A stretch of DNA of 44,130 nt from an uncultured bacterium (lineage in GTDB: Bacteria > Cyanobacteriota > Vampirovibrionia > Gastranaerophilales > Gastranaerophilaceae). The stretch spans positions 1 to 44,130 of the forward strand of contig CASFTJ010000013.1 in the NCBI GenBank assembly GCA_949297715.1, given 5' to 3'. Every line of letters starts with the position of its first letter. The stretch's first letter is position 1. The notes beneath the pieces are model-generated. The model saw only the letters and a list, made by a program, of their open reading frames with translations, did no database searches and had not been told where the DNA came from. Positions 1 through 44,130 of this stretch are shown in pieces. The position numbers and the translations under genes were made by a program.

Positions 1-91
1 GCTGTAGTGCTTTTGCGATTTGCGAATGCAAATTAGCAAAACACGAAATGCCGTTACACGCGAGCGACCAAGACAATCGCGCCGGGGCCGG
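1..91 (+). repeat. Partial tRNA-tail hairpin element (left edge copy)
   Basis: The window opens inside a copy of the element also seen after tRNA-Gly and tRNA-Tyr near the right end. Bases 51-76 (GCCGTTA, then GCGAGCGACCAAGAC) match the Tyr copy almost exactly. Bases 11-41 form a strong hairpin (TTTTGC, ATTTGC / GCAAAT, GCAAAA) at the place where the other copies carry hairpins of different sequence. After AAGAC comes AATCGCGCC GGGGCCG, which reads as the T-loop 3' half, T-stem and acceptor strand of a tRNA. The parent tRNA would lie left of base 1. The reading frame through 3-126 is open, but I see no reason to call a gene. Confidence 0.6.
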
Positions 92-38268: not shown

Positions 38269-38343
38269 GCGGGGGTAATTCAGTGGTAGAATGCCTCCTT
38301 GCCAAGGAGGATGTCGCGAGTTCGAGCCTCGTCTCCCGCTCCA
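38269..38343 (+). tRNA. tRNA-Gly (anticodon GCC)
   Basis: Complete cloverleaf: acceptor GCGGGGG/CTCCCGC, anticodon loop TTGCCAA, T-arm GCGAG TTCGAGC CTCGT, discriminator T and encoded CCA. A terminator follows at 38350. Its 3' part from T-loop position 58 is duplicated 190 bases downstream. Confidence 0.97.
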
Positions 38344-38534
38344 TAAAGAAGAGTCTGAATTTCAGGCTCTTTTTTATTTTATAGGGAGATTTTGACGAGA
38401 ACTCGCTTTTTCGAGTTCGGCGACCTGTGAGCAGAGGGCGAAGGCTTGCCTGCGTATGGATTAAACCATTTAAGCAGGCAACCGAAGACCCGTTTAATGC
38501 GAGCAGGTCAAGACAGCCTCGTCTCCCGCTCCAT
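38325..38534 (+). repeat. tRNA-Gly tail duplication enclosing a hairpin element
   Basis: The 20 bases 38325-38344 (T-loop A58 through CCA plus T) recur exactly at 38515-38534. Between them lie the tRNA terminator, a hairpin GAACTCG/CGAGTTC (38399-38418) ending in GTTCG, and a 95-base insert (38420-38514). The insert has GTGAGCAGAGG, a central hairpin TTGCCTGC/GCAGGCAA (38446-38481) and ends GCGAGCAGGTCAAGAC. The same framework is found after tRNA-Tyr and at the window start. No gene is encoded. It looks like a short mobile or structured element fused to the T-loop. Confidence 0.75.
38350..38377 (+). terminator. Terminator of tRNA-Gly
   Basis: Hairpin AGAGTCTG / CAGGCTCT (one G-T pair) followed by a T run, starting seven bases after the CCA end. 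Confidence 0.85.
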
Positions 38535-38771
38535 TTAAAACATAAGTCCAGTAAGCCTTTTGGGAAACTGGATTATTTTTTTATTTTGGCTTTTTTCATT
38601 TATGCTCATATTTTGCTCATATTTTTCTGAAAAAATATTCCCGATTTGTAATGTCGCTTTTTTAACCATGCCTGCACCCTCAAATAAATCAATACAGTCA
38701 TTTAAATTTCCGTTTAAAAATTTTTGTATTTTTATATCAAATTTTTCACGTAATTTTTTATCAAAATACTG
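38535..38771 (-). pseudogene. Possible 5'-truncated gene remnant
   Basis: On the leftward strand a frame is open for about 78 codons with coding-like composition (KKLREKFDIKIQKFLNGNLN, DCIDLFEGAGMVKKATLQIG, ending KKIIQFPKRLTGLMF). Its stop codon abuts the duplicated tRNA-Gly tail. There is no start codon at its left part except an internal ATG (38669, giving 44 residues). It may be the C-terminal remnant of a lost gene, possibly from the agent that made the tail duplication. No family is recognised. Alternatively it is chance; bases 38547-38580 also form a terminator-like hairpin on the + strand. Confidence 0.35.
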
Positions 38772-38830: not shown

Positions 38831-39949
38831 ATGAATATAGAAGGCAAATATACAACAGCCAAAATTTACGCATCAACAATAGATGACGGCACAATAGAAC
38901 AAACAAAAAACATTTGTGACCACCCGATTTTTGCGGACTGTAAAATCCGCATCATGCCTGACTGCCACAAAGGGAAAGGGTGCACAATAGGTTTCACCTC
39001 AGAAATGCCCAAAGGCGGAGAAATTATTCCAAATATAATCGGAGTAGACCAGTCTTGCGGAATGTATGTCGTCAAGCTAATTGATTCAGATAACTTGGAC
39101 GAATATGAAAAACTAGATAAAGTAATCAGAAAAAATATTCCGACAGGAACAGGTGCAAGAAAAGAGCTTAGTGAACTTATTCAGGAAGAACTCAAAGAAA
39201 AAATTTGCCAAATTTCAAAAGATATTTTAAAAGAAGAATCGAGCGAGGAAGATTTACTCAAAATCGGAACTTTAGGAAGCGGAAATCATTTTATCTCAAT
39301 TGAAAAAGGGACAACAGGAACTTATTTAATAATCCATAGCGGCTCAAGAAATTTTGGGAACAAGCTTGCAATTCATTTTCAAAATCTTGCAATAGAAAAA
39401 AACTGTTACGGTGATAATTATTTAAAACAGCTTTCATATCTGACAGGAAAAGATGCCGAAAATTATTTATACTGCGCCGATGTATGCCGGGATTACGCCC
39501 ACTGGAGCAGAAAAATAATGGCGGAAGAAATTCTTAAGAATATGAACTGGCAAGCAGAAGAAACATTTGAAACCCTGCACAATTATATCGGAAAAGACAA
39601 TATAATTCGCAAAGGCGCAATTTCAGCACATAAAAATGAAAAAGTTTTAATACCTTTAAATATGGCAGACGGCTCACTAATATGTATCGGCAAAGGCAAC
39701 AAAGACTGGAACGATTCAGCCCCGCACGGTGCAGGCAGAATAAGCACCCGCACCCAAGCTAAAGCAAACCTTTCAATGGATGAATACAAATCAAGAATGC
39801 AAGGAATTTTCACGACCTGTATTTCTACAGGCACACTTGATGAGTCGCCGATGGCATACAAAAATGCCGACGAAATTATAAAATCAGTAGAACCTACAGT
39901 TGAAATTATTGACCACATAAAACCTCTATACAATTTTAAAGCAGGTTAG
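38831..39949 (+). CDS. rtcB: RtcB-family RNA ligase
   Basis: A 372-residue RNA ligase that joins 2',3'-cyclic phosphate and 5'-OH RNA ends using GTP and Mn2+, repairing cut tRNAs. Metal and active-site residues are visible: MPDCHKGKG, D73 and C76 (GVDQSCGM, where E. coli has GVDIGCGM), GNH at 151-153, H169 (IHSGSRNFG), H250 (LHNYIG), and the guanylylated H299 in PHGAGR. It is on the short side of the family. A TATAAT at 38810 and CGGAG precede the ATG. No archease or RtcA/RtcR gene is adjacent. It is the first intact gene after tRNA-Gly and its tail element. Confidence 0.93.
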   Translation: MNIEGKYTTAKIYASTIDDGTIEQTKNICDHPIFADCKIRIMPDCHKGKGCTIGFTSEMPKGGEIIPNIIGVDQSCGMYVVKLIDSDNLDEYEKLDKVIRKNIPTGTGARKELSELIQEELKEKICQISKDILKEESSEEDLLKIGTLGSGNHFISIEKGTTGTYLIIHSGSRNFGNKLAIHFQNLAIEKNCYGDNYLKQLSYLTGKDAENYLYCADVCRDYAHWSRKIMAEEILKNMNWQAEETFETLHNYIGKDNIIRKGAISAHKNEKVLIPLNMADGSLICIGKGNKDWNDSAPHGAGRISTRTQAKANLSMDEYKSRMQGIFTTCISTGTLDESPMAYKNADEIIKSVEPTVEIIDHIKPLYNFKAG

Positions 39950-43361: not shown

Positions 43362-43397
43362 TTTTTTCTGAAAATTTAATAATCAAAGTTAATAAAA

Positions 43398-43648
43398 TTT
43401 GAGCCTTTGTGGCAAGGACTCCGCGCAGTTAACTGAGTGTTAACGGAGTGGAGGGTGAGTAGCAGAACTCCATTGGTACATTTGTTCAAAACAATTTGAG
43501 CCTTTGTGGCAAGGACTCCGCGCAGTTAACTGAGTGTTAACGGAGTGGAGGGTGGGTGTGGCAAGGACTCCGCGCAGTTAACTGAGTGTTAACGGAGTGG
43601 AGGGTGGGTGGCAGAACTCCATTGGTACATTTGTTCAAAACAATTTGA
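43398..43648 (+). repeat. Tandem palindromic repeats carrying tRNA-Thr 5' ends
   Basis: A unit of about 97 bases is repeated. It begins GCCTTTGTGGC (the exact first 11 bases of the following tRNA-Thr), continues with a core of about 50 bases containing a hairpin ACTCC..GTTAAC / GTTAAC GGAGT, then GCAGAACTCCATTGGTA and TTGTTCAAAACAA. The core occurs three times (at about 43410, 43507 and 43559); the second unit is cut short by 52 bases. The part after the core resembles the anticodon arm and T-loop of tRNA-Thr(GGT), so the units look like degenerate tRNA-Thr copies with an insert in the D-arm. No gene is found here. Confidence 0.7.
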
Positions 43649-43720
43649 GCCTTTGTGGCGCAGGGGTAGCGCACTCCCTTGGTAAGGGAGAGGCCACGGG
43701 TTCAAATCCCGTCAAAGGCA
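43649..43720 (+). tRNA. tRNA-Thr (anticodon GGT)
   Basis: Acceptor GCCTTTG/CAAAGGC, D-arm GCGC/GCGC, anticodon loop TTGGTAA, T-arm ACGGG TTCAAAT CCCGT, discriminator A. No encoded CCA. Preceded by tandem repeats that copy its 5' end. No promoter of its own is obvious, so it may depend on read-through from tRNA-Thr(TGT). Confidence 0.96.

Positions 43721-43737: not shown

Positions 43738-44130
<393 letters not shown>

Follow-up and report, generated by a model that had tools for sequence, protein, structure and literature searches.

Hairpin elements at the ends of tRNA genes and reading frames in Gastranaerophilales, proposed as a family of short mobile palindromes

Behind a tRNA-Gly(gcc) gene of an uncultured bacterium of the Gastranaerophilales lies an element whose central hairpin cannot be aligned with those of its sister copies, each of which pairs within itself. 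The question raised by this locus is what keeps the fold while the letters change. The window analysed here is a stretch of 44,130 nt that forms the entire contig C13 of a 2.02 Mb genome in 34 contigs (G000 below), and at gathering scores Rfam yields tRNAs in it and nothing else. As developed below, we propose that the element belongs to a family of short mobile DNA hairpins spread through the gut-dwelling Gastranaerophilales, a variant of palindromic mobile repeats. A literature search covering few subscription journals found no such elements described in Gastranaerophilales or at stop codons.

The element is about 150 nt long and stands 3' of tRNA-Gly(gcc) and its terminator; like the other parts of the window copies given here, it lies on the plus strand. 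The tRNA gene (38269..38343; ARAGORN, Rfam RF00005) is the source of the 3'-end copy behind the element. Between the two is the intrinsic terminator of the tRNA, GAGTCTGAA-TTTCAGGCTC-TTTTTT (38351..38375), and an element-free tRNA-Gly(gcc) in a second genome, G001, is followed by a nearly identical one. Sequence and fold then place the left arm of a stem, P1, at 38384..38399 (GGGAGA-TTTT-GACGAG), which repeats the tRNA 3' end in inverted form and complements CTCGTCTCCC within the 3' copy. It runs into a second hairpin, P2 (GAACTCG...CGAGTTCG, 38398..38419), in which the 5' half of the T arm occurs both inverted and direct. The core, P3 (38420..38515), scores 49.0 bits (E 1e-10) with R1, a covariance model trained on 33 related copies that include the Tyr copy of the window and not the Gly copy. 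It consists of an outer stem, GA mismatches, an inner stem P3b (GGG/CCC) and the central hairpin P3c (38446..38481), in which TTGCCTGC at 38446-38453 pairs with GCAGGCAA at 38474-38481, and it ends in AAGACA. The last 20 nt of the element (38515..38534; direct repeat D1) repeat the tRNA-Gly 3' end exactly, from the T loop onward, and 3' of them comes a second terminator-like hairpin, TCCAGT...ACTGGA with a T run (38547..38580). An RtcB RNA ligase gene (38831-39949) comes after the element, probably by chance.

Model R1 finds four matches in the window. The initial annotation had counted three copies, and the fourth is the next tandem unit 3' of the Tyr copy. Behind tRNA-Tyr(gta) (43738..43823; ARAGORN), a P1 left arm, GCAGGGGTG-A-GAT, and a P2 hairpin, CACC-CCC-GGTG with a final GGTTCGA, occupy 43861..43896 (sequence and fold) and represent the tRNA-Tyr 3' end copied first inverted, then direct. 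The core at 43897..43986 reaches 92.7 bits (E 5e-22), has GAATTTTG (43919-43926) and CAAAATTC (43947-43954) as its central stem, and falls within a sub-threshold match to RF00391 (43850-44004). A copy of the tRNA-Tyr 3' end, AATCCACCCCTGCCCACCA, follows at 43986..44004 (direct repeat D3), and at 44032..44130 a second unit begins with a 180-bp period (repeat D2); its core, from 44077, scores 32.2 bits over 44077-44130 before the contig end cuts it. The remaining match is the right part of a core from a tRNA-Arg(cct) copy (1..75, 45.2 bits), cut by the contig start, with central stems TTTTGC/GCAAAA and ATTTGC/GCAAAT at 11-41 and a copy of the tRNA-Arg(cct) 3' end, AATCGCGCCGGGGCCG, at 75..90; the matching left arm is found at the tRNA-Arg that terminates contig C28. 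Both ends of contig C13 thus break within element copies. All central stems named earlier are present in the sequence where they had been placed, and 38420, given as the start of the Gly element, is the exact start of the R1 match. What had been overlooked is that every copy sits within a duplicated and inverted tRNA 3' end.

Elements accompany 8 of the 42 tRNA genes of G000, namely tRNA-Tyr, Leu cag, Leu gag, Ser tga, Gly gcc, Gly tcc, Gly ccc and Arg cct, the Ser and Arg carriers having been recognised by eye, and one orphan copy adjoins a tRNA-Asp-like 3' end. Related arrangements occur nearby and elsewhere in the genome. Between tRNA-Thr(tgt) and tRNA-Thr(ggt), three direct repeats (43391-43659) include a palindrome together with the duplicated 5' end of tRNA-Thr, GCCTTTGTGGC; they are a tRNA 5'-end counterpart of these elements. 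Behind tRNA-Thr(cgt) on contig C20 (L010, 1574-1740), and in G001 too, another hairpin core has the same placement, in the layout of an inverted tRNA 3'-end copy, a different core and a tRNA copy from the T loop.

The plan seen in the window recurs among relatives: P1 left arm, GA, P2, core, AAGAC(A) and the remaining tRNA sequence, T loop to end. The fetched loci hold 143 distinct copies, 123 of them with a recognisable left end. The P1 left arm is the inverted 3' strand of the T stem, sometimes extended into the acceptor and often carrying a bulged A; its pairing with the tRNA copy is weak in many cases, the own partner beating others in only 45 of 80. P2 is the 5' half of the T arm, inverted and direct, with a final GTTCGA. 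The 3' end of the gene occurs a second time, with the core lodged in the T loop of this copy and the inverted copy ahead of it, and tRNA-borne cores come after TTCGA or TTCA, not TA. The right-hand tRNA copy starts 4 or 5 nt past T54 in 49 of 57 measurable copies (5 nt in 36 and 4 nt in 13; 2 nt in 4, 3 nt in 2 and 8 nt in 2). Cores are about 75-100 nt long and follow the scheme GCG-X-GA-YZ-GA-GC ... GC-GA-Z'Y'-GA-X'-C, with an outer stem rich in G-C pairs, GGC/GCC or GGG/CCC as the inner stem, a variable hairpin inside and a conserved single-stranded tail, AAGACA.

The hairpin keeps its fold while its letters change, as the initial annotation had supposed from three copies. Across 33 diverse cores, 97.6% of alignment cells are paired and 41 cells carry double changes, against 11.4 after shuffling, a covariation score matched by none of 500 shuffles; shifting the partner by one to three columns lowers the paired cells to 17-44%. 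The 104 model matches (99 distinct) contain 310 double changes against 105.5 shuffled, in an alignment that leans to the model, being fitted to R1. All four GA, forming two tandem G-A/G-A mismatches, are retained in 109 of 114 cores, and the base pairs between these near-invariant mismatches switch on both sides together; the outer pair X is C-G in 75 cores, G-C in 25, T-A in 10 and something else in 4. The central hairpins are near perfect (1401 matched positions, 155 mismatched, 94 gapped), and in 106 of 106 distinct copies the central arms pair better with each other than, on average, with the arms of ten other copies. Compared with mononucleotide shuffles, the fold has a mean Z of -3.7, with 10 of the 106 copies above -2. 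A larger alignment and a search for copies without a central hairpin had been suggested as checks; the first gave the excess of covariation just described, and the second turned up a small minority. In 29 of 64 cases (7.7 expected), the nearest copy from another locus shares the tRNA isotype. The earlier idea of a palindromic element that gains new palindromes comes close: the central hairpin and the P2 hairpin both vary from copy to copy, and related genomes may have or lack a core at one and the same site.

Whether such a fold is maintained in RNA or in DNA can be approached through the kinds of pairs that it tolerates. RNA helices accumulate G-U, and acceptor stems taken as a control, those of 134 tRNAs at these loci, show 49 GU and 3 AC. 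A search for a G-U excess on both strands of the core helices, set against this control, found none: P3 and P3b of 110 distinct cores have 6 GU and 11 AC, the central hairpin by neutral alignment has 11 and 3, and the larger alignment has 15 GU and 12 AC in P3 and P3b with 35 and 44 in the central hairpin, all of these counts coming from related copies and so not being independent. The missing excess makes a DNA hairpin maintained for the sake of mobility more likely than a simple functional RNA, and between the two possibilities left side by side in the initial annotation, functional RNA and protein-bound DNA hairpin, it leans towards DNA. The case is also a warning that covariation alone is no proof of a functional RNA.

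The leading alternative is a structured RNA, in which the core would be transcribed with the tRNA, tmRNA or mRNA before it and act either after release, as a small RNA, or at the 3' end of abundant transcripts, which it would protect or terminate. Several observations point that way. The layout equals that of E. coli rtT; the preceding genes are usually highly expressed, and 18 cores follow open reading frames in sense; and in 95 of 106 copies it is the plus strand that gives the more stable fold, an advantage that comes in part from the favourable scoring of GA mismatches. One report has rtT-family RNAs expressed in A. pleuropneumoniae (PMC4986893). Against this, 42 of 59 copies have a terminator between the tRNA and the core, compared with 3 of 177 shuffled stretches, so that transcription of the core would need read-through; a terminator-like hairpin also lies past the core in 35 of 59 tRNA-borne copies (11 of 177 shuffled stretches). 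Besides the lack of a G-U excess, orthologues of the same gene in relatives do without the core, and whole genomes do without any copy. On balance a structured RNA seems unlikely, if worth keeping in mind.

The distribution of the family can be followed with R1, whose E-values in genome searches are rough and were combined with strict filters. Matches occur in 164 of 192 sampled Gastranaerophilales genomes and in 35 of 45 genera (E 0.01), leaving 28 of the 192 genomes without any copy. In a sample of 146 genomes from the phylum, 58 have matches and all 58 belong to the window's own family, the other orders drawn giving no R1 match. Copies per genome reach at least 22 where 22 candidates were scored and 25 where 28 were. 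The hosts are tRNAs of 15 isotypes and tmRNA. By context, 67 of the 143 copies have a tRNA at most 260 nt upstream, 60 of these with a tRNA 3'-end copy of at least 8 nt; 5 follow tmRNA, 7 are tandem, 6 have a direct repeat with no called tRNA, 16 are too short to judge and 42 have none of these, many of the latter holding tRNA-like copies with the tRNA interrupted or missing. Elements grow in tandem arrays, including the 180-bp period at tRNA-Tyr. Some copies (L087, L101, L130, L135, L158) come from metagenome-assembled genomes titled Clostridiaceae, Fusobacterium, Muribaculaceae or Brachyspira, labels that may be wrong. Others (L056, L068, L078, L163, L193, L072, L074) are cut by sequences with repeated AATCAAAC motifs, several of which end ..TTCTTTTACAG; these resemble the ends of larger transposons using elements as landing sites.

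The same core also lies at the ends of many unrelated protein genes, essential ones among them, at an exact position. Among 64 cores with both ends recognised, 32 stand behind tRNA or tmRNA, 18 at the end of an open reading frame, 5 in tandem and 9 elsewhere, shares that are not genome-wide, as the 80 stretches fetched came from high-copy genomes and were picked from the best-scoring R1 matches. In 15 of the 18 the stop codon starts 2 nt before the core (-2, TA|G), so that the first G of the core completes TAG. A wider set of 153 cores likewise has 18 within 10 nt of a reading-frame end and 15 at -2; antisense ends, sought among 16 leftover cores, number 3. The genes include, by Pfam, an S4-domain ribosomal protein, S14, L22, L23, L31, L33, RpoB, FtsZ, GroEL, ribonucleotide reductase, NDK and GcvT, together with two pilin-like proteins that have no Pfam match and one gene with a sub-cut-off match alone. 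Exact stop-codon cores were found for S4, S14, L22, L33, rpoB, ftsZ and groL, while L23 (-24), L31 and NDK (+7) and GcvT (+28) lie off the -2 position. The rpmG, rpsD, groL and pilin copies are common to two genomes and may go back to one inherited event each. No consistent target duplication was found at stop codons among the ORF-end cores. The spot behind the rpsD stop codon is a palindrome hot spot: in the rpsD-rpoA spacer of different genomes (L411-L430), other palindrome families, GGAAGG-rich or of the CGGTGCCTGAGGCAC type, directly follow the stop.

A coding role of the kind seen in Rickettsia palindromic elements had been entertained for the Tyr copy. It fails for the window copies; in relatives, cores lengthen the C-termini of L31, NDK, GcvT and EF-G (fusA, L134, identified from its C-terminal sequence only) and one in-frame core within a ribonucleotide reductase gene (L309, 667-741) encodes 25 linker residues. 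An antisense or purely coding reading of the family was rejected: among 104 matches there are 14 open frames, and one, that of L309, is credible by eye.

Cores are present or absent at the same site across related genomes. The rplV-rpsC spacer gives the clearest instance, the core being missing in 11 of 14 located same-genus genomes, with two filled (G089, G067) and one remnant (G134); ten more distant genomes gave seven empty spacers and three that were not located. Filled rplV alleles differ from empty ones also over the next ~16 nt, which implies that insertion is not letter-perfect. The tRNA-Arg(cct) site is graded, with the full element in G000, half of it in G001, the arms only in G010 and nothing in G011. 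At three tRNA sites everything downstream differs between G000 and G001, and element-free tRNA sites of G001 were accordingly set aside as proof of insertion.

We consider it moderately probable that the element is a non-autonomous, hairpin-forming mobile repeat whose mobile unit is the core, placed at gene ends by an enzyme acting in trans. Such an enzyme would recognise the folded core, probably as single-stranded DNA, and insert it behind an A. At stop codons the core would land between TA and the third base, its first G restoring TAG, and at tRNA and tmRNA genes in the T loop of the fold-back copy of the 3' end, so that both types of landing would spare the host gene. The fold-back tRNA copy could be a landing pad or be made while inserting. 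The covarying fold, the exact positions, the spread over many unrelated genes, the variable occupancy of one site and the tandem growth are observed; the single-stranded intermediate, the enzyme and a fold kept for movement rather than for a host task are what we infer. The mobilising enzyme was not found. A Y1 transposase (PF01797) is not supported in this role: it is absent from G000 and G001 and occurs in 16 of 59 genomes with no link to element carriers, and only one of the 24 Y1 places that were read adjoins a core, behind tRNA-Leu(caa) on contig C16 of genome G003 (L278).

Three further readings deserve less weight. The attachment sites that tyrosine integrases of islands prefer are blocks of tRNA and tmRNA genes that start at the T loop and reach the 3' end, and the elements might be remnants of site-specific integration, either minimal integrative elements or scars parasitising such sites. 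Direct repeats that span T loop to gene end at tRNAs and tmRNA agree with this, as does the differing downstream DNA of G000 and G001, typical of integration hot spots. The reading leaves the same core on protein-gene stop codons and the inverted copy unexplained, and the Pfam-named neighbours of the window copies are housekeeping genes (RtcB, PEPCK, DNA polymerase III alpha) with no integrases, which makes it rather improbable. About equally doubtful is that the core moves as RNA, joined into cut RNAs and returned to the chromosome by reverse transcription and recombination. The cuts would fall at exposed places, the stop codon in the ribosomal A site at UA|G and the T loop of tRNA or tmRNA; RelE-type nucleases cut the A-site stop codon at UA|G. 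If true, this would account for the TA|G precision, for the fold-back copies of tRNA 3' ends and for the bias towards abundant transcripts, and the elements would represent a new, RNA-borne class of bacterial mobile element. Least credible is a fold under no selection, in which template switching during replication perfects palindromes and alone makes the arms co-vary, for although the central hairpins are highly perfect and turn over rapidly, the tandem GA mismatches that such correction would remove stay unpaired in nearly all cores and the AAGACA tail is conserved. Template switching may speed the turnover of the central hairpin.

The closest known system in layout is rtT, which has reportedly figured since 1991 as a small RNA, of unclear function, encoded in one E. 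coli operon. Like RtT (RF00391; E. coli tyrT/tyrV), the elements form tandem units of ~180 bp, each ending in a tRNA 3'-end copy. The K-12 units have a P1 stem GGGGAAGGAT/ATCCTTCCCC and GA, then a T-arm hairpin, an insert that separates TTCGA from ATCC, and finally the copied tRNA 3' end; an inverted copy before the insert (GGGGAAGGAT in rtT), a GAUGAGAA linker, the T-arm hairpin and the T-loop insert are common to both. A tandem GA motif is also reported for RtT (PMC7657543). Judged by the RtT layout, the elements have the tRNA upstream with its 3'-end copy, the inverted copy and the T-loop insert, with a left-arm pairing that is often weak. They differ in an insert that folds differently, in their many tRNA isotypes, tmRNA and stop codons, and in the terminator that mostly stands in front. 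RF00391 gives a single match on G000 (E up to 10), the Tyr copy at 16.4 bits, and seven on 146 genomes (E up to 2), the best at 24.8 bits and six of them on elements (L302 being the exception); none in the 146 genomes reaches the gathering threshold of 45 bits, and the elements are therefore called RtT-like, not RtT. E. coli genomes have a median of 6 core-similar places each at a loose cut-off. By analogy, elements laid out like rtT may also work like it.

Other palindromic repeats share parts of the picture. Rickettsia palindromic elements, likened here by description only, are short, many-copy palindromes in coding and non-coding places; to our knowledge, neither TA|G and T-loop precision nor tRNA fold-back has been described for them. 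Yeast mitochondrial GC clusters are G+C-rich mobile palindromes of an AT-rich genome that form tandem arrays, and one class is thought to target an upstream TAG, according to one study (PMC4464245). The 15 of 18 ORF-end cores at TA|G are comparable, while tRNA-borne copies follow TTCGA or TTCA instead; the organisms are of another kind, and no shared sequence is claimed. We know of no tRNA 3'-end copies in GC clusters. REP and BIME sequences are intergenic hairpins with mismatched stems in tandem arrays, both features of the present elements, and enterobacterial rtT-like elements have been placed among BIMEs (PMC2965389). Unlike the REP/RAYT pair, the elements have no Y1 transposase in G000 or G001 and show no association with one in relatives. 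If rtT-like hairpins across the order hold up, rtT would appear as one manifestation of a mobile palindrome specialised for gene ends, and how a hairpin of 75-100 nt finds stop codons and T loops harmlessly becomes a testable question.
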